In this document: piece by piece, positions 8,740 through 45,021 of the stretch
How positions within the stretch are numbered: position 1 is the first letter of the stretch
How the letters are laid out: each line of letters starts with the position of its first letter
DNA from: Chthoniobacterales bacterium
GTDB lineage: Bacteria; Verrucomicrobiota; Verrucomicrobiia; Chthoniobacterales; Terrimicrobiaceae
Assembly: GCA_014879575.1 (NCBI GenBank)
Contig: JACSRU010000128.1
Span: forward strand, 1-45,021
DNA length: 45,021 nucleotides
Reading direction: 5' to 3'
The notes under the pieces: model-generated
What the model saw: only the letters and a program-made list of their open reading frames with translations
Told to the model about the DNA's origin: nothing
Database searches by the model: none
Position numbers and translations under genes: made by a program

Positions 8740-8949
8740 CGGTCTCGAGATTGCAGCCTGTCGGCTCCCGCAGGAATTGCACCCTTCGCGGATTGCAAAA
8801 ACAGGACAATCGGACAACGGGCTGGACATCCGCCTCGCCCTGGTTGCCGGGGCATGGCGGGATTTTGCAACACCTGTCCGCATCCGAATGACGGAATCCC
8901 TCCCTCCGAAGGAACCTCCCCCCCATAGTCTGGGAAAACGAAAAATCTT
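8740..8949. promoter_or_regulatory. Divergent promoter region with repeated GGACA and TTGCA words
   Basis: This gap between divergent starts contains GGACA at 8804-8808, 8812-8816 and 8824-8828, plus the reverse word TGTCC near 8875. TTGCA occurs at four places (near 8753, 8777, 8793 and 8865). Closely spaced direct repeats are typical for AraC-family sites, and two cupin-AraC genes lie in this window, but no binding site is proven. Confidence 0.4.
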
Positions 8950-10890
8950 GTGACGACTCTTCTTGCGCATCCCGACCGAATCGGGGCGGTCTCCGGCAAG
9001 GGGCCTCATGGCAGCCTGCCCTGGCCCGAACTGCTTCCCCGTTGTCATCCGGCGGCGGACTCCCGCCGGATCGCGGAGGGCCGTCCGATTCCCGCCGGCT
9101 ATTATGCCGACCAGCCGTATGTGATTCGAGCCGACGACGGCGCCTGGGTCTGCGTCGTCACGACGGGCGCGGAGCACGAGGGGCAGCGCGGCCAGCATGT
9201 CGTCACCCTGCGAAGCCGCGATGAGGGCCGCAGTTGGCAGGATCGCGTCGAGATCGAGCCGCCGTCCGGCCCGGAGGCGTCGTGGGGGGTGCTTCTCAAG
9301 GCACCCGGTGGACGCCTTTTTGTCTTCTACGTCTTCAACGCCGACAACCTGCGGGAACTGCCGGCCGACGACCCGCCGTGGGAGGGCGGCAAGACCACCC
9401 GCATGGACTCGCACGGACATTATGTTTTTCGCTGGAGTGATGATCATGGAAAAACCTGGTCGCGGGAACGCGCGACCATCCCGGTGCGGGAATTTGCCAT
9501 TGACCGGGAAAATTCCACCGGTGGCCGCGTGCGGCTGTTCTGGAATGTCGGCCGTCCCTTGATCCGCAAGGGTGAGGTGCTTCTGACGCTGCACAAGGTG
9601 AAAGGCTTCGGCGCCGGCTGGTTCACCGCATCCGAGGGCGCGCTTGTGGCTTCGAATGACCTTCTTGAAGCGGCGAACCCCGCGGACGCGACCTGGGTGA
9701 CCCTGCCGGACGGCGACACCGGCATTCGTGCGCCCCAGGGCGGCGGACCCGTGGCCGAGGAACACAATCTTCTCCTGCTGAGCGATGGCTCGCTGGCCGT
9801 GATCTATCGCACCCTAGCCGGACATCCCGCCCAGGCTTACAGCCGCGATGGTGGCCACACATGGAGCGAACCGGACTATTTGCGCCACTCCGGCGGGCGT
9901 CCCTTGAAGCATCCCCGCGCCGCCTGTTTTGCCTGGCGCCTGAGCGACGGCGGATATGTGCTCTGGTATCACCATCACGGCGGACGCTTCATCAGGGAAC
10001 ACCCGCAGCGGGCCGATGCCAGCTATGCGGATCGCAACCCGGTCTGGATGTGCCGCGGACGGGAGGAGGAGACTCCGGAAGGGCTGCGCCTGGTTTGGGA
10101 CAATCCGGAAATCACGCTCTACGACGACGATCCCTGCGTGCGCATGAGCTATCCCGACCTGATCGAGCAGGAGGGAAAAATTTTTCTCACCGAAACCCAG
10201 AAGATGAGCGCGCGCGTGCATGAAATGTCCGATCCGCTTGCCACCGCGCTCCGTGCCGGACCGGCCGCCTTTTCCGCTGCGGCGATCCAGGCGGAAGCGG
10301 TTCTGGACTGGCCCGCCTGCGGTCCCGTTGCGGCCTTGCCGCCGTTGCCGTATTTCCTGGGATGGGATGTGGAGAGTCCCTACGGGCACGTGGATTTGCG
10401 GGCGGGATTCTCCATCGAGTTTGCCTTGGAGACGACGGGCCTCGACGGGGATGTCCTTCTGCTCTCCGCGTGCCATGCGGCCTTCGGGGGAATCGTTTTG
10501 CGCTGGCAAAGCGAAGGCGTGTTGGTGTTTCAAGCGTCGGATGGACGCACCGAATGGACGTGCCGGACGGATGCGGGGATCTTATCCGGAGAGGGACCGC
10601 ACCACCTTGTTCTGGTGGTGGATGGCGGCCCGAAGATCGCGTCCTTTGTTGTCAATGGCACCCTTTGCGACGGCGGAAGCGAACGCCAGTTCGGGTGGAG
10701 CCGGTTCAGTCCGCATTTCCGGGGAATCCTCTGGCGGGGCCCATTGGAATTTTCGTCCGAAGGCGTGGAGGCGATGCCCTTTCTGCGCATCTACGATCGG
10801 GCGATTTTGTCGGCGGAAGCGGAAAGCCTTTTTCGGGAGTTCGATGTCTTCGGCCACTCGGAAGGGCTTGCGCCATCATTGCTCCGTTGA
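8950..10890 (+). CDS. Sialidase-like BNR/Asp-box protein with C-terminal LamG-like domain
   Basis: 646 residues from a GTG start, no signal peptide. The N-terminal two thirds is a six-bladed-propeller type sialidase-like domain with Asp-box motifs (S-x-D-x-G-x-x-W): SRDEGRSW, SDDHGKTW and SRDGGHTW. The C-terminal part (from about residue 475, DLRAGFSIEFAL) looks like a LamG/concanavalin sandwich. Known relatives cleave terminal sialic acids or related sugars; whether this subgroup does so is not evident. Two close paralogs lie at 33077-31113 and 35032-33074, which share long blocks such as PVREFAIDRENSTGGRVRLFWNVG. The lack of a signal suggests a cytoplasmic enzyme acting on imported oligomers. 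The gene is followed, in the same direction, by a trypsin-like PEP-CTERM gene. Confidence 0.85.
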   Translation: MTTLLAHPDRIGAVSGKGPHGSLPWPELLPRCHPAADSRRIAEGRPIPAGYYADQPYVIRADDGAWVCVVTTGAEHEGQRGQHVVTLRSRDEGRSWQDRVEIEPPSGPEASWGVLLKAPGGRLFVFYVFNADNLRELPADDPPWEGGKTTRMDSHGHYVFRWSDDHGKTWSRERATIPVREFAIDRENSTGGRVRLFWNVGRPLIRKGEVLLTLHKVKGFGAGWFTASEGALVASNDLLEAANPADATWVTLPDGDTGIRAPQGGGPVAEEHNLLLLSDGSLAVIYRTLAGHPAQAYSRDGGHTWSEPDYLRHSGGRPLKHPRAACFAWRLSDGGYVLWYHHHGGRFIREHPQRADASYADRNPVWMCRGREEETPEGLRLVWDNPEITLYDDDPCVRMSYPDLIEQEGKIFLTETQKMSARVHEMSDPLATALRAGPAAFSAAAIQAEAVLDWPACGPVAALPPLPYFLGWDVESPYGHVDLRAGFSIEFALETTGLDGDVLLLSACHAAFGGIVLRWQSEGVLVFQASDGRTEWTCRTDAGILSGEGPHHLVLVVDGGPKIASFVVNGTLCDGGSERQFGWSRFSPHFRGILWRGPLEFSSEGVEAMPFLRIYDRAILSAEAESLFREFDVFGHSEGLAPSLLR

Positions 10891-10921: not shown

Positions 10922-11052
10922 TGGCTTTTCACACAGTCTCGCATTCCGGACATTCCGTCTTCGCGGGTTTTTGTCCGCCGGAAGCAAGCCTTGTCAGGAG
11001 GTTGCAATCGGCGAAGATTTCCTTCGTTGCGAAATTGCGGGAGGGTGCGCTC

Positions 11053-13809
11053 ATGGTCATCTCCCTCTCCCGTTGGTGTTGTTTCCTCGTTGTGTCCGCC
11101 CATGCCGCGCTGGCCATCACGATCAATAATGAAAGTCCCGAGGTGAACTACCGGTTCTCGTCCGGCTTCCGCACGGCCAATCCCATCCAGAACACGGACC
11201 CTTCCTTCGTCGCCGCCGGCTACGACCTTTCGGGCCTCGGGTGGTGGAATCTGCCCGGCGATGTCCAACGCGTGAAGCACACCACGCTGGTCGCGCCGAT
11301 GTTTTCCGTCAATGCCGCCCACTATCCCTTCGAGGCGGGCAATACGGTCGACTTTCTCGACAGGACGGGAACTTTGCAAAGCAACACCGTGGCGGCCCGG
11401 GCCACCGCATGGGGCGATGCCTCCGTGACCCGCTACCAGTCGGCGTTCACAGAATCGGATCAGGTGTCCGTCGTGCGGATTCTGGATATTTCTTCCCTGA
11501 ATTACACGAACCAGCCGGCCTTCATTGTCGGCAGCCAGGGCAACGCCCCCCTCATCGGAACGGAGTTTGCCACGGCCCGGGTGTGGAACACCACCGGCCA
11601 GCAGGCAACGTTTTTCAATAACACTCACGACAGCTCGCTCTCGTTCAAGGCACTCCAGAATGGCGATTCCGGCAGTCCGACATTCCTTCCCTACAAGGGG
11701 GAGATTACGCTGCTCGGCACGGTGACGAGCGTCCCCGCCAGCGGGCCCGCGTATATTCCGAGTGTCCGCACCGGCACGATGAACGCCATTCTTTCCGCCT
11801 ACGGCTATGCCCTGCGCTTCACCATCTATGACCAGCCGTCCGATACCGCCAACACGGCCAATGTCTGGACGGGCGGCGCGGGAACGGGGCACTTTTTCAC
11901 GGGTGCGAACTGGGCGCAGGGCGCCGCGCCCGGGGACGCGCCGGTGGTCTTTGATGCCGGAGCGAACAATGGACAAAGTGCCGTGACGCTCGATGCGAAT
12001 CAATCGCTGCGCGGGATGCTTTTCCGTGCGAACGCGGGCCCGTCGGGGTTCACCTTCAACGGCTCGGGGACGCTCACGGTCGGCACCACCGGCATCCGCA
12101 ACGAGGATGCGAAAACACAGACCTTCAACGTCGCGATGGCGCTCGGCGGGGCGCAGAACTGGGAGGCGGCGCAGGGAGATTTGGTGTTCCACGGTGCCAT
12201 CGCCAATGGCGGCCACCTTCTGGTGGTGCAGGGCGCGCAGGACACCACGATCCACGGTGTGATTTCCGGAACCGGCGGACTCGCCAAGGACGAGGCGGGC
12301 ACTCTGACCCTCGGCGGCGCGAACACGTATTCCGGCAAGACGTTTCTGCACAATGGCGTGCTCAAGGCGGGCGCGGACAATGCGTTTTCCACCGCGAGCA
12401 CGCTGGCCTTTGACACGACCAACCCGGGAGCGCTCCTGGACCTCGATGGACGGTCCGCCGGGCTCGGCAATTTGCAGTCCGACCTCGACGGCAAGGGACG
12501 CGTCGCGCTCAACGGCGGAACGCTTTCCACCGGTTCTCTGAATGCGGCGGCCACGTATGCGGGCACGTTTGAGGGGCCAGGCTCCGTGGTGAAACAGGGC
12601 ACGGGCACCTGGACGCTCACCGGCAGCAACAGCACCTACACCGGCTCGCTCGTCGCGGCCAATGGCATCCTGCAACTCGGCACCTCCCATGCGCTCGGCG
12701 GCGGACAGAACATCGTGCAGGTCCTCGGACGCGTGCAAACCAACACCTCGCTGGATGTGCATGGCGCGCTCACCTTCACGGCGACCCAGAATGGCGTCTC
12801 GGCGGTCACTGCCGGCTTCGGCGGCAACGCGCTCGCGGCACTCGGCGACAACACGGTGGTCACCTATCACAATGCCCTCACTCTGGACCGCCAGGGGACG
12901 GGAACGGGCGACGTGAAATACAATTTCCGCACGGCGGGCGGCGGCGCGCAGCGTTTGACCATCGCCGGGGATGTCACCACGAGCGGCTCCACAGCGGGTG
13001 CCATTTCCCTCGACGCGTGGATGCCGGGTTCCTCCGGAAACGTGATCGACTTTCAGGGACGGATTGCCGACGGGGTCGGCGGGCCGCAACTCAAGTTCAA
13101 TGTCACCGGCCTGGGCACGACGCTCCTCTCTTACGCTGCCGGAAACGGCTACACCGGAATGACGACCGTCTATACCGGCGCGACCCTGTTGGTCAACAAT
13201 GCCAGCGGCTCGGGCACGGGGAGCGGAGCGGTTGATGTGCGCTCGGGCGCGACACTCGGCGGCACGGGCATCATCGTCCCCGGCGGCAGCGCCGGGATCG
13301 CGGTCGCGTCGGGCGGCATCCTGGCACCGGGCGACAGCGTGCTGGACGTGCTGGGGACGCTGGAAATCAACCTCGCCTCGACCACCGGCAAGTCGGTCTT
13401 CCAGACCGGAGCGCGCTTTGCCTTTGACCTCAACGCGCCAGGTCAAAGCGACACGCTGGCCTTCACCGGCCTGACGGCGGGCGATGTCGTCTTCAACAAC
13501 AATGTGATGGATTTCACCAATCTCGGCGGCCTGGCGCCCGGCAGCTACACGCTCTTCACCTTCGCCACCGCCGGCGCCTACACGGGCGGCCTTGCGGTGG
13601 GGACCGGCTTGGAGGGCTACGAGGCTTCCTTCAGCTACAACGCCCAGTCCATCGTCCTGAATGTGGTTCCCGAACCCGGCACGACCGGTCTCGTTCTCGG
13701 TGCCCTCGGCCTCCTCGCCGTGCGCCGCCGCCGCAACCGGGTGGGGAATTCACAACGGATGTCCGAAATTCACAAAATAGACCGCTTGCCCGTGGCCTCC
13801 CTTCCCTGA
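11053..13809 (+). CDS. Exported trypsin-like protein with beta-strand repeats and PEP-CTERM anchor
   Basis: 918 residues. The ATG at 11053 is chosen because it has a clear purine-rich Shine-Dalgarno (GGGAGGG) and opens a signal peptide ending SAHAALA; the frame runs upstream to 10912. Residues about 25-260 resemble a trypsin-like (S1) peptidase: His90 in NAAHY, Asp136 in SDQVSVVRIL and Ser206 in GDSGSP would form the triad. From about 290 onward come Gly/Thr/Asn-rich autotransporter-type beta-strand repeats, including GLAKDEAGTLTLGGANTYSG. The C-terminus has a PEP-CTERM signal (VPEPGT, hydrophobic helix, RRRR). Oddly, a further 23 or so polar residues follow the Arg cluster. The exosortase needed for PEP-CTERM processing is not in the window. 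Paralog at 35281-38034; both sit beside sialidase-like genes. Confidence 0.85.
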   Translation: MVISLSRWCCFLVVSAHAALAITINNESPEVNYRFSSGFRTANPIQNTDPSFVAAGYDLSGLGWWNLPGDVQRVKHTTLVAPMFSVNAAHYPFEAGNTVDFLDRTGTLQSNTVAARATAWGDASVTRYQSAFTESDQVSVVRILDISSLNYTNQPAFIVGSQGNAPLIGTEFATARVWNTTGQQATFFNNTHDSSLSFKALQNGDSGSPTFLPYKGEITLLGTVTSVPASGPAYIPSVRTGTMNAILSAYGYALRFTIYDQPSDTANTANVWTGGAGTGHFFTGANWAQGAAPGDAPVVFDAGANNGQSAVTLDANQSLRGMLFRANAGPSGFTFNGSGTLTVGTTGIRNEDAKTQTFNVAMALGGAQNWEAAQGDLVFHGAIANGGHLLVVQGAQDTTIHGVISGTGGLAKDEAGTLTLGGANTYSGKTFLHNGVLKAGADNAFSTASTLAFDTTNPGALLDLDGRSAGLGNLQSDLDGKGRVALNGGTLSTGSLNAAATYAGTFEGPGSVVKQGTGTWTLTGSNSTYTGSLVAANGILQLGTSHALGGGQNIVQVLGRVQTNTSLDVHGALTFTATQNGVSAVTAGFGGNALAALGDNTVVTYHNALTLDRQGTGTGDVKYNFRTAGGGAQRLTIAGDVTTSGSTAGAISLDAWMPGSSGNVIDFQGRIADGVGGPQLKFNVTGLGTTLLSYAAGNGYTGMTTVYTGATLLVNNASGSGTGSGAVDVRSGATLGGTGIIVPGGSAGIAVASGGILAPGDSVLDVLGTLEINLASTTGKSVFQTGARFAFDLNAPGQSDTLAFTGLTAGDVVFNNNVMDFTNLGGLAPGSYTLFTFATAGAYTGGLAVGTGLEGYEASFSYNAQSIVLNVVPEPGTTGLVLGALGLLAVRRRRNRVGNSQRMSEIHKIDRLPVASLP

Positions 13810-35280: not shown

Positions 35281-38034
35281 ATGAAGACGATGGGAAGGAT
35301 GACGAAAGCCCCCTTAGGAAGACTTCTCTTAGTGAGCGCCCTCGCGGCCGCGGTGCCCGGATACGGCATGCAGGTTGCCAATGAAACCCAGGACGGCAAC
35401 TATCGATTCTCTTCCGGATTCGCGACGGACACGCCGGTGGAAAACACGAGCCCGCTCTTCATCGGCGCGGCCTACGACTGGTCCGGCGTGGGTTGGATGA
35501 CAGGCGTCACCTCGGGCAGTGCCACCACCGTCCGGGTCACCAACATCACCATGGTGAGCCCTTTGCATGCGTTCAGTGCCAGACACAATGGCATCTGGCA
35601 ACTGGGCAACAATGCGCGCTTTGTTTCCGAGACCGGTGCGGTGGTCAACATCGGGCTCTCGACGGCCAATCCCGCGATTTCGATTCCCGGCCAGAATCAT
35701 GACCTCAACATCACGCCGTTGGACCGCGCCCTTCTGACGGCCGAGGCGGTGACGCCCCTGCGGATTCTGGACGTTTCCAGCAACAACTATGTGGGAATGG
35801 ATGCGCTCGCGGTGGGAAGCCACAACAAGACGACCGGCCAGGTGGTGGCCACCACCTGGATCGCCTCGGTCACACCGTCCAGTAGTTCCACCACCATCGG
35901 CCTCAAGCTGAACCAGACCGATCCCACCGTTTCGTTCCAATATTGGGAGGGCGGCGATTCGGGAAGTCCCCTGCTGATTCCCTATGAGGACACCCTGACG
36001 GTCGCCGGTTCGGCATGGTTCGCAAGCGGGGCCGGTTCCCTGCTGTCCACCCGCCCGGCCTACAACCCCACCCAGGCACTGAATGAACGGATGGCCCAGA
36101 CCGGATATGCGCTCCGGTGGAGCATCTACGACAAACCGGCCGACGCCGCGAACACCGCCAACGTGTGGCAGGGAACGACCGGAGATTTCGCAGGCGCGAC
36201 AAACTGGAGCCAGGGGGTCGCCCCGAGTCAGCTCCCGGTGGTCTTTGACTCCGGCGACAGCGGTGCCGTCCATGCCGTCAGCCTCTCCCAGAATGCTGCG
36301 GTGCGAGGCATCCTTTTCCGGGAGTCCCCGTCCACGAATGGCTATGTGCTTTCCGGCCCGGGCACCCTCACGGTCGGCGCTTCGGGCCTTCAAAACCGTG
36401 CGGCGGCCACGCAGGTCCTCCACACGATGATCTCCCTGTCCGAGTCTCAGAACTGGGAGGCCATCGGGGGCGACCTTGTGGTGAACGGCGCAATCGCGAA
36501 AAACGGCTACCTGCTTGTGGTTCAGGGCGGCCGGGACACAACCCTCGCCGGGACGATCTCCGGCTCGGGTGGCCTGGCCAAGGACGAAGCGGGAACTCTT
36601 TCGCTGGGGGCGGCGAACACGTATTCGGGAGGAACCTTCATCCACGACGGCACGGTGAAAGCCCTCGTCAACGGCGCGATTCCCACGGGCGGCATGGTGA
36701 TCTTCGACACGATGAACCCGGACGCGACTTTGGATGTCAACGGAAAGTCCCTCGTCTTCGGAAGCATCAACTCCCTGCGGGGCGGCTTGGGAACGGTGGA
36801 TATGAAGGGCGGTTCCATCACGATCGGGGGGAACAATGCCTCCTCATCCTTCGCGGGGGTTTTCACGGGGGGAGGATTTGTCACCAAGGTCGGCTCGGGA
36901 AACATCACGCTCTCCGGCGACAACAGCGCCTACACCGGACGGTTTGTTTCCGAAGGGGGCAATGTGGTGATCGCCGCGTCCAAGGCCCTTGGCGGCGGGG
37001 AGAATATCATCAATACCGGCGCACGGCTGCTGACCACGGACAGCCTTGCCGTGCAGGGCGACGCGGTGATTAGCGCGAATCAAAATTCGAGCACCACGAT
37101 GAACGCCGGTTTTATTTCCAGCGTGGTCGTGGCCCTTGGGAATGCGACACAGGTTTCCTATCAGGGCGATTTCACCCTGGAGCGAAAGGGATCGGGAACC
37201 GGCCTGATCAAATATGCCTTCCAGACCGGCGGTTCCGGCGCACAGACCCTCCGCATCGATGGGGATATTCGCACCTCGGGAAACACCCTCGGGCGTGTCT
37301 CGCTCGAAAGCTGGGTGCAGACCAGCGCGGCGGCCACGGTGGATTTTCACGGGCGCATCAGCGACGCTGGCGGGCCGGTCCTGCAAGTGGTGACGACTGG
37401 CATCGCGGGCGGAACGACCAAGCTTTCCTCCGAGTCCGGCAATGATTTTTCCGGTGGCGTGACGGCACTGGCCGGGACTTCGCTGGTCATTAGCAACTCC
37501 GCAGGTTCGGCCACGGGAAGCGGCAGCGTGGAAATCCAGGCGAACGCCAGGTTGTCCGGCGCGGGAATCATGGCACCCACCGGCAGCAACGGCCTGACGG
37601 TCCTCGCCAATGGCCGTGTCGCTCCGGGGCTCGACGGCATCGGAGAGATGACGATTGACCTTTCGCAAACCACCGGAAAAGCCAATTTCCAAACCGGTTC
37701 TCGTTTTCTCTTCGACCTCGCAACCAACCATTCCAGCGACCAACTGACGTTCCTTGGCACGGCCACCGGTGACATCCTTTTTTCGTCCAATGTGATTGAC
37801 TTCACCGTCTCCGGCGAACTCGCGCCGGGACTCTACACGCTCTTTGATTTCGACTCGGCCTACGCCTATTCCGGCGGGCTTGTTCTGGGAACGGGACTGG
37901 AGGCGTATGAAGTCAATCTGATTCATAACTCGACGAACATTCAGCTCCAGATCGTGCCCGAACCCGGCACGGCGGCGCTCATGCTCCTTGGCGTGGCGGG
38001 TCTGGGCCTTGCACGTCGCAAAGCCCGTAACTAA
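35281..38034 (+). CDS. Exported trypsin-like protein with beta-strand repeats and PEP-CTERM anchor
   Basis: 917 residues. The ATG at 35281 is chosen because it opens a signal peptide (MTKAPLGRLLLVSALAAAVPGYG); ATGs at 35290 and 35299 are also possible, and the frame is open to 35068. The trypsin-like region keeps His102 (SARHNG) and Ser227 (EGGDSGSP). The Asp seen at the matching place in the paralog is Glu/Ala here (TAEAVTPLRIL), so the triad is uncertain. Beta-strand repeats follow (GLAKDEAGTLSLGAANTYSGG). The C-terminus is a standard PEP-CTERM signal (VPEPGTAALM, hydrophobic stretch, RRKARN) with no extra tail. It is a full-length paralog of 11053-13809. Divergent from the sialidase-like pair and 24 bp before the esterase gene. 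Confidence 0.84.
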   Translation: MKTMGRMTKAPLGRLLLVSALAAAVPGYGMQVANETQDGNYRFSSGFATDTPVENTSPLFIGAAYDWSGVGWMTGVTSGSATTVRVTNITMVSPLHAFSARHNGIWQLGNNARFVSETGAVVNIGLSTANPAISIPGQNHDLNITPLDRALLTAEAVTPLRILDVSSNNYVGMDALAVGSHNKTTGQVVATTWIASVTPSSSSTTIGLKLNQTDPTVSFQYWEGGDSGSPLLIPYEDTLTVAGSAWFASGAGSLLSTRPAYNPTQALNERMAQTGYALRWSIYDKPADAANTANVWQGTTGDFAGATNWSQGVAPSQLPVVFDSGDSGAVHAVSLSQNAAVRGILFRESPSTNGYVLSGPGTLTVGASGLQNRAAATQVLHTMISLSESQNWEAIGGDLVVNGAIAKNGYLLVVQGGRDTTLAGTISGSGGLAKDEAGTLSLGAANTYSGGTFIHDGTVKALVNGAIPTGGMVIFDTMNPDATLDVNGKSLVFGSINSLRGGLGTVDMKGGSITIGGNNASSSFAGVFTGGGFVTKVGSGNITLSGDNSAYTGRFVSEGGNVVIAASKALGGGENIINTGARLLTTDSLAVQGDAVISANQNSSTTMNAGFISSVVVALGNATQVSYQGDFTLERKGSGTGLIKYAFQTGGSGAQTLRIDGDIRTSGNTLGRVSLESWVQTSAAATVDFHGRISDAGGPVLQVVTTGIAGGTTKLSSESGNDFSGGVTALAGTSLVISNSAGSATGSGSVEIQANARLSGAGIMAPTGSNGLTVLANGRVAPGLDGIGEMTIDLSQTTGKANFQTGSRFLFDLATNHSSDQLTFLGTATGDILFSSNVIDFTVSGELAPGLYTLFDFDSAYAYSGGLVLGTGLEAYEVNLIHNSTNIQLQIVPEPGTAALMLLGVAGLGLARRKARN

Positions 38035-42778: not shown

Positions 42779-44773
42779 ATGATCGGAAAACGCATCGCTT
42801 GGCACCACGTCCGATACCATTGGGAAATCTATCTCTTTGCCGTACCGGTCGTTTTTCTTCTCGCGCTCTTTCATTATTATCCGACGGCCAGCAGCATTTA
42901 CCACAGCTTCTTCCGCTGGAACGGCGCCGACATCTCGGAGTTTGTCGGGTTCAAGAACTACCGCGACCTCTTCGCCTCGACGACCTTCTGGCAGTCCTTC
43001 CGAATCGCGTTTCTTCTCGGTGGCTGGAATGTCGCGAAAATGGCCCCGGCCATCATCGTGGCCGTCTGGATTCACCGCTGCCGCAGCGAGCGCATGCAAT
43101 TTTTCTACCGCATTATGTTCGTGGTGCCGATGGTCATCCCGTTTCTGGTCGTCGCCCTGATCTGGCGGACGTTTTTCTTCGAGGCCACCCAGGGCTTGTT
43201 GAACGCGGTTCTTGCCGGGACCGGCCTGATGACGGTCCTGTGCCGCCTCGACGCGTTTTTCCACTGGGGCGGGATTTTCGTCGAGGGCGTCCAGCCCGCG
43301 TGGCTGGGCGATCCCCGGCTCGTCCTTGCCGCCTGCGTCATTTGGGGATTTCCCTGGATCGGTTCCTTCGCGGTGCTCACCCATCTGGCCAAGCTCCAGA
43401 ACATTCCCAAGGAAATCTACGAAGCCGCGGAAATCGACGGCGCCACGTGGTGGAGCAAATTTTCCCGGATCGAGGCGCCGCTTCTCATGAGTTCCATCTA
43501 TCTGATGCTTGTCTTCGTGATTATCGGAACCATCAAGGATGCCAGCATGATCATCGCCCTGACCGGAGGGCTGGACGGCGGCCCGGGCGGACTGGCCACG
43601 GTGCCGGCGCTCTTCATGCTGCGCAAGGCGCTGGTGAATCAGGAAATGGGCGCCGCGTGCGCGGTGGGCATCATTCTCACCGTGGTCGTGATGACTCTGC
43701 AAAAACTCAGCGCGTATTTGCTAAGCGAAGAGCGGAGATCCTCGCCGGGAAGAACCGCCGTCCGACTCTTGGGACTGCTTTGCGCCGTGGCGCTTCTTGT
43801 GCTCCTGCCGGACTGGCGCACGATCGGCATTTTTCTTTTCATCGGGTGTTTTCCCTTCGCGGCCGTCTTTTCCTTTCTCCGCGAAAGGCTTCCCCTTCCG
43901 AGCCTTCCGGCGCTCCGGCTCCGCCGGAAATCGCCCGGTTTCTTATCCGAAAAAGGGAAGGACCTTTTCCTGCGATTTTTCAAACACGCCGGAATCTGGG
44001 CCGTGCTGGCGTTCGCGTTTGTGCCTGTCTATCTGATGCTCGTCGTCAGCGTGAAAACCAATCAACAGTTTTACGAAACTCCGGGAATCCTCACCTTCCC
44101 CATGCAGTGGCGGAACTGGATCGAGGCCTGGGGGATGATCTCGCCCAGTCTCGCCAATAGCATCTTTATCTCGACGACGAGCACCGTGATCACCCTTTTC
44201 CTCTCGCTCTGCGGGGCCTACTTCTTTACCCGCCTCCGCGTGCCGCTTTCGGGTTTCCTTTGGAACGCGCTGCTTATTCTTCTCATGATGCCGACGATCG
44301 CCAACCTGGTCCCCCTCTTCCGGCTTCTCGGCAGCATGAATCTTCTCAACACCTTTACCGCCCTGATCTTCGTGGGGGCTTCCAGCGGGCAGATCTTCGG
44401 CATCTTTGTCCTGCGCAATTTTATCGCCGACATTCCGGGCGACCTTTTCGAGGCGGCGGAAATCGACGGCGCGAACCATTTTCAGCAAATGATGATCGTC
44501 GTCCTCCCCCTTTGCGGCCCGATTCTCGGCACCATCGGGGTCATGCATTTCATCAACGAATGGAACGAATTCGTCCTGCCTCTCGTCGTGATGAGCGACA
44601 CCGCCTCCCTCCCCGTCATGGTGCAGTTGCAAAGGCTCGCCGGGGAATATGTCAAATTTTTCGGCCCGCTTATGGCGGGATACGCCATTGCCAGCATCCC
44701 CGTGATTGCCCTGTTCATGTTTTCGATGCGTTTGTTCGTCAGGGGACTGACGGATGGCGGATCGAAAGGCTGA
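42779..44773 (+). CDS. Fused MalF/MalG-type ABC sugar permease
   Basis: 664 residues from the ATG at 42779; an ATG at 42774 is out of frame, and earlier codons are shadow. It contains two complete ABC importer permease domains in one chain. The first has about six membrane helices and the EAA loop EIYEAAEIDGATWW (from residue 212). The second starts near residue 405 (WAVLAFAFVPVYLML) and has its own EAA loop DLFEAAEIDGANHF (from residue 555). The linker (about 305-400) contains two further hydrophobic segments. Normally these are two separate proteins, UgpA/MalF-like and UgpE/MalG-like, that form a heterodimer. No ATPase gene is in the visible part, so a shared ATPase elsewhere would have to drive it. 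The substrate is probably the product of the secreted enzymes. Confidence 0.88.
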   Translation: MIGKRIAWHHVRYHWEIYLFAVPVVFLLALFHYYPTASSIYHSFFRWNGADISEFVGFKNYRDLFASTTFWQSFRIAFLLGGWNVAKMAPAIIVAVWIHRCRSERMQFFYRIMFVVPMVIPFLVVALIWRTFFFEATQGLLNAVLAGTGLMTVLCRLDAFFHWGGIFVEGVQPAWLGDPRLVLAACVIWGFPWIGSFAVLTHLAKLQNIPKEIYEAAEIDGATWWSKFSRIEAPLLMSSIYLMLVFVIIGTIKDASMIIALTGGLDGGPGGLATVPALFMLRKALVNQEMGAACAVGIILTVVVMTLQKLSAYLLSEERRSSPGRTAVRLLGLLCAVALLVLLPDWRTIGIFLFIGCFPFAAVFSFLRERLPLPSLPALRLRRKSPGFLSEKGKDLFLRFFKHAGIWAVLAFAFVPVYLMLVVSVKTNQQFYETPGILTFPMQWRNWIEAWGMISPSLANSIFISTTSTVITLFLSLCGAYFFTRLRVPLSGFLWNALLILLMMPTIANLVPLFRLLGSMNLLNTFTALIFVGASSGQIFGIFVLRNFIADIPGDLFEAAEIDGANHFQQMMIVVLPLCGPILGTIGVMHFINEWNEFVLPLVVMSDTASLPVMVQLQRLAGEYVKFFGPLMAGYAIASIPVIALFMFSMRLFVRGLTDGGSKG

Positions 44774-44826: not shown

Positions 44827-45021
44827 ATGCGCCACATCCCTTTTTCACGGCTTCTCCTGTTTTTTCCCGTTGCTCTCGGGTCCCTGTGGTCGGCGGACAT
44901 CCATCTTAGCCCGGAGGGTCCGGTTTCCACCCTGGAGGCGGCCCGCGACGCCGCCCGCCTGGCCGCGAAACCCGCGCGAATCCTCGTCGGCAAGGGGGTG
45001 TATCCGATCACGGAACCGCTT
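44827..45021 (+). CDS. Start of a secreted right-handed beta-helix-like protein (partial)
   Basis: Only 65 codons are in the window; the gene runs past its end. The N-terminus has a signal peptide (MRHIPFSRLLLFFPVALGSLWSA) and then DIHLSPEGPVSTLEAARDAAR and ILVGKGVYPITEPL. This opening is typical for parallel beta-helix proteins such as pectate-lyase-like or GH110/GH141-like enzymes, but the family cannot be decided from the fragment. The ATG has a C-rich leader (CCCTTATCCC). A weak 6-bp stem GGAAAT/ATTTCC lies at 44783-44802 after the permease stop. It probably continues the operon that begins at 38059. Confidence 0.65.
   Translation, partial: MRHIPFSRLLLFFPVALGSLWSADIHLSPEGPVSTLEAARDAARLAAKPARILVGKGVYPITEPL

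Follow-up and report, generated by a model that had tools for sequence, protein, structure and literature searches.

A 45,021-nucleotide stretch from a Chthoniobacterales bacterium (referred to as the window, that is the whole stretch of DNA analyzed) encodes an ABC permease in which the MalF-like and MalG-like subunits of a CUT1 importer are joined in a single polypeptide. This fusion is a real, stable, single-origin CUT1 variant, and sits in a conserved, little-described cassette with genes for a TPR protein and a solute-binding protein (SBP); in full-text literature, with few subscription journals covered, we found neither a fused CUT1 permease nor this TPR-SBP-permease cassette. In our working model, which we consider about 75% probable, the cassette would give rise to a one-chain CUT1 importer onto which a MalK-type ATPase docks and which works with the anchored SBP and a periplasmic TPR partner, its halves being held together by a cytoplasm-to-cytoplasm linker with a dispensable hairpin. 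The features on which this model builds are collected in Table 1.

Table 1. Features of the TPR-SBP-permease cassette in the window.
Feature	Position	Strand	Basis
TPR protein, 322 aa	40115..41083	+	Gene call, homology, Pfam TPR_14/TPR_6
Solute-binding protein (SBP_bac_1/SBP_bac_8), 565 aa	41080..42777	+	Pfam E 1.8e-17
Fused MalF-MalG type ABC permease	42779..44773	+	664 aa, uninterrupted frame, domain and homology matches
MalF-like half, residues 1-312	42779..43714	+	NCBIfam/PDB matches; aligned with split MalF-like proteins
First EAA loop EIYEAAEIDGATWW, residues 212-225	43412..43453	+	Starts exactly at residue 212
Linker, residues 313-397, fast-evolving spacer	43715..43969	+	dN/dS; length variation in clade
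Linker hydrophobic hairpin, residues 326-344 and 349-367	43754..43879	+	Hydropathy; four-residue turn, outer sides basic
MalG-like half, residues 398-664	43970..44770	+	CUT1-type C-terminal tail GLTDGGSKG
Second EAA loop DLFEAAEIDGANHF, residues 555-568	44441..44482	+	Starts exactly at residue 555

A prior sequence-only reading had proposed two permease subunits in one frame with EAA loops at residues 212 and 555. Both loops were found at exactly these positions, and the frame (42779-44773, plus strand) is open over all 664 codons, without a stop or frameshift. Pfam BPD_transp_1 matched two stretches of the protein (whole-protein E 7.9e-22). Among NCBIfam models, the N-terminal half resembled UgpA, GlcT and MalF, and the C-terminal half GlcU (4.2e-40), MalG (1.3e-27) and UgpE; relatives in the PDB were AlgM1/SugA/MalF for the former and SugB/MalG for the latter. 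As all NCBIfam scores stayed under the equivalog cutoffs, we assigned the permease to no named member. The two separate permease polypeptides that are usual in CUT1 importers, though not strictly defining, are replaced by one chain at 29 loci, and the one-chain form sets the halves at 1:1 stoichiometry by construction. That such a fusion is unusual for the class, as had been suggested, was borne out by the 25 best plasmid matches, nearly all of which were annotated as two genes and none as a fusion. The two halves would fold as a pseudo-symmetric pair and provide the entire translocation path of the importer. An AlphaFold model of the permease, built from nine sequences, was poor (mean pLDDT 37.6, with the linker helix pair as its best-predicted part); topology therefore rests on hydropathy, and the model was kept out of the fold search and the topology reading. 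By simple hydropathy count, both halves are six-helix units in nearly all members of the clade; the same count gives seven segments for the halves of the window permease, which we took as one split segment.

The same fusion occurs at 29 distinct loci, the window included, in Verrucomicrobiota, a Kiritimatiellae bin, Hydrogenedentota and one unplaced bin. Pattern scanning across 84,980 genomes returned eight of these loci at 54-93% identity, namely two near relatives (one of them Spartobacteria LR76), Chthoniobacterales VE1, Verrucomicrobia LW23, Verrucomicrobia B70_G9, a Hydrogenedentota bin, a Kiritimatiellae bin and the unplaced bin Hainich, and it is this single scan that provides the occurrences outside Verrucomicrobiota. 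Sampling 387 genomes from the phylum added 20 further carriers. Within the order, 4 of 147 sampled genomes carry the fusion, our own among them, and none of three genomes sampled from its genus gave a match; the distribution is therefore patchy. The trees contain a 30th tip (L096), which was not counted as a distinct locus: its contig is apparently that of L008, with equal length and matching genes. Some gene starts, for example at L046, L048 and L052, are uncertain, as they come from a home-made gene caller.

These orthologs also bear on whether two ordinary neighboring genes were merely joined by an error in sequencing or assembly, or by loss of a stop codon. In favor of this explanation, MalF and MalG are as a rule encoded by two genes, and such pairs are present at related loci. 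However, homologs are not always two genes: independent genomes from several groups show the same continuous frame, each with its own linker, the fused proteins group in a single clade with full support, and the linker is still under purifying selection. We regard an artefact as wholly implausible. Internal restart of translation was also considered and rejected; residues 342-408 offer no in-frame start codon, and independent orthologues are likewise fused.

We built trees for the F half, the G half and their concatenation, including split pairs and using two distant CUT1 systems of the same genome as outgroup. In all three, the fused proteins formed one clade among split MalF/MalG pairs with a bootstrap of 100, so that the fusion is monophyletic in the tree of either half, which answers the earlier question whether it is a stable clade. 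A single fusion event is the simplest reading of these trees. At 18 loci with split MalF/MalG genes, the order TPR-SBP-F-G was found. Since these split relatives already possess a TPR protein and an anchored SBP, the partnership is older than the fusion, the joining of the halves having come later. In some other split relatives (L071, L072, L074, L109-L112), the permease pair stands alone in its neighborhood, a few of these loci being incomplete.

Gene order in the cassette is strongly conserved. TPR, SBP and permease genes follow one another in 26 of 28 testable fused loci, on one strand and no more than about 430 bp apart; one locus (L012) is cut by a contig end. The TPR-SBP pair is located at another locus than the permease in two genomes of one genus (G104 and G090). 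The fusion hence lies almost without exception beside a TPR gene and a helix-anchored SBP, but the suggested special tie between the fusion and either partner was not supported, as the 18 split relatives have both. At L044, a small gene that looks RidA-like by inspection (8892-9275) lies between SBP and fused permease.

In the window, the TPR gene overlaps the SBP gene (ATGA), which in turn abuts the permease gene. The TPR gene product comprises a single N-terminal hydrophobic segment followed by a TPR superhelix, and the AlphaFold model (mean pLDDT 83.5) is an all-helical repeat that matches TPR proteins in general. By inspection, many of the TPR proteins carry a lipobox-like cysteine, and that of the window a plain hydrophobic anchor; in many relatives the protein would accordingly be a lipoprotein, whereas here a helix apparently anchors it. 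The SBP has an N-terminal hydrophobic anchor without a lipobox, which by inspection is conserved in orthologues with a complete N-terminus. This uncleaved helix would keep the SBP at the inner membrane, from where it would pass substrate to the permease. One TPR protein (L052, 4486-6264) has a predicted length of 592 aa; its additional N-terminal stretch has no Pfam match and reflects either fusion to another domain or a wrong start.

In fused loci, pairwise distances of TPR protein and SBP correlate with r = 0.92, compared with 0.72-0.85 for the other pairs, which shows joint inheritance, not contact. We envisage the TPR protein as a periplasmic partner inherited together with the other components, which most likely loads the SBP or serves as its scaffold. 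It could instead be a mere co-transcribed neighbor without a role in transport, such as an envelope protein of the BamD/YbgF kind. Its nearest PDB sequence is indeed BamD/YfiO, generic TPR proteins and BamD rank first, the model is a generic TPR superhelix, and the protein is the least conserved part of the cassette (mean identity 0.42). A bystander would, however, hardly account for a gene order that is kept in fused and split systems alike, for a TPR-SBP pair that stays together even with the permease at another locus, or for the lack of a nearby TPR gene at the genome's two further CUT1 systems, and we therefore consider a role outside transport unlikely.

The linker evolves much faster than the halves it connects, with dN/dS of 0.43-0.46 compared with 0.06-0.07 when the window permease is set against LR76 or L006. 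Its differences from LR76 are in frame and below neutrality (dN/dS 0.46), and its length varies from about 50 to 360 aa across the fused clade. Fast evolution and variable length, combined with dN/dS below neutrality, thus mark the linker as a tolerant spacer that is translated and mildly constrained. The number of hydrophobic segments within it varies too: most members have two, whereas L051-L053 have none, about five or six occur in L057-L062, and L059 reaches about twelve. Numbers are mostly even, the simple hydropathy count being odd in some members. The longest fused permease (L059, 7050-9932) measures 960 aa; its linker of about 360 aa and about twelve segments resembles an internally duplicated version of the linker in related proteins.

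In the window, the basic outer sides and short turn of the hydrophobic pair are as expected for a hairpin that would enter the membrane from the cytoplasm, and the linker would accordingly act as a tether from cytoplasm to cytoplasm. The proposal that the two extra segments position the second half was not upheld: a pair of segments brings the chain back to the side from which it started, the halves are each six-helix units by count already, and L051-L053 have no segments at all, so the hairpin is not required for orienting the second half. The pair might still constitute a functional third module, for instance a docking hairpin for the TPR protein, the SBP anchor or a lipid. A hairpin ending in an FPY-like motif does recur in many members despite the fast evolution of the linker, and segment numbers rise to about 5-6, or as many as 12, in some members. 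Yet the three clade members without segments keep both TPR protein and SBP, and dN/dS of the linker exceeds that of the halves by a factor of about seven, leaving us doubtful of a third module and in favor of a dispensable hairpin in an otherwise simple tether.

No ATPase for the permease is encoded in the window. The genome contains one close MalK-type ATPase on another contig (C77, 6781-7923), with ABC_tran, OB_MalK and TOBE_2 domains, and it probably powers the fused importer. Both EAA loops would dock onto a dimer of such a MalK/UgpC-type ATPase encoded elsewhere in the genome. Corresponding genes directly follow the fused permease in L051 and L052, lie within 3 kb of it in L007, and follow the split pair in L077. 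The C77 ATPase probably also serves the genome's other pair of CUT1 systems, a sharing that we infer; one ATPase serving several sugar importers is described for MsmK and MsmX (PMC4519317, PMC5730181).

The substrate of the importer is presumably sugar-like. By inspection, neighboring genes vary among fused loci and are mostly unrelated or housekeeping-like; the substrate is therefore not fixed by context. In the window, positions 908-35032 form a glycan-degradation region encoding GH2-type and GH42-type proteins, an alpha-L-fucosidase/GHL6-type protein and three BNR (sialidase-like) proteins, along with a GDSL lipase, a DUF2961 protein, an MFS transporter and three AraC regulators. Two large proteins (11002-13809 and 35332-38034) combine passenger-associated (PATR) repeats with a PEP-CTERM tail. 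The gene just after the permease (44828-45021) is cut by the contig end, and its relative at L007 (8039-10747) has beta-helix and GH141 domains. This neighbor is a possible substrate clue for its own subclade only.

Compared with established CUT1 importers (MalFGK2-E, UgpABCE, SugABC and the archaeal GlcSTUV), the system is alike in both halves, the EAA loops and the MalG-type tail, as well as in having an SBP_bac_1 SBP and a MalK-type ATPase in the genome. It differs in that the halves form one chain, the SBP is helix-anchored, a TPR gene is conserved and the ATPase is encoded elsewhere at most loci. A different fusion solution exists in the same cell: in two further CUT1 systems (L092, 6546-11376, contig C64; L093, 6242-10308, contig C82), an SBP_bac_1 domain is joined to one permease while the two permeases remain separate. 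The second permease of these systems has a long N-terminal extension, and no TPR gene is nearby.

Two permease domains and two EAA loops in one chain are likewise found in PhnU2 (TIGR03262), but the window permease scored 54.4 bits against that family, whose cutoff is 593, and thus falls outside it. FbpB/SfuB and ThiP are other fused two-domain ABC permeases. The PhnU2, FbpB/SfuB and ThiP systems transport phosphonate, iron or thiamine, and we know of no TPR partner in any of them.

The closest analogue in layout is TPAT of Treponema pallidum (TatT-TatP-TatQM), in which the TPR lipoprotein TatT binds the SBP of a TRAP transporter whose permease is likewise fused (PMC5812351). Both systems share the three-gene arrangement of a TPR protein, a membrane-tethered SBP and a fused permease. 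The TPAT permease, in contrast, is of TRAP type, whereas all 37 scanned sequences of the present system carried the ABC domain BPD_transp_1 and not a DctQM-type permease; the TPR proteins match BamD rather than TatT by sequence, and split ABC forms with the same TPR protein exist. Among the PDB sequence and fold matches listed for the TPR protein, TatT (the Tp0956 fold) did not appear. Another periplasmic binding protein whose gene accompanies that of a TatT-superfamily protein is known from Methylococcus (BstB and BstC, PMC10942540). Tentatively, and with odds we would put somewhat against it, the cassette could represent a distinct class of TPR-associated ABC importers, in which the TPR lipoprotein would be an obligate loader or scaffold of the SBP and the one-chain permease the most integrated form, convergent with TatQM.

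The fusion itself is moderately interesting, and of all parts the TPR association most deserves testing. As a natural one-chain MalF-MalG, the permease makes the asymmetric roles of the halves testable at exact 1:1 stoichiometry in single-chain mutants, and the clade's linkers of about 50-360 residues offer a natural series for testing the requirements on a permease linker. Some Verrucomicrobiota are known polysaccharide degraders. If the TPR protein does load the SBP, TPR assistance would reach from TRAP to ABC importers, and this would bear on periplasmic substrate handling in some members of the phylum.
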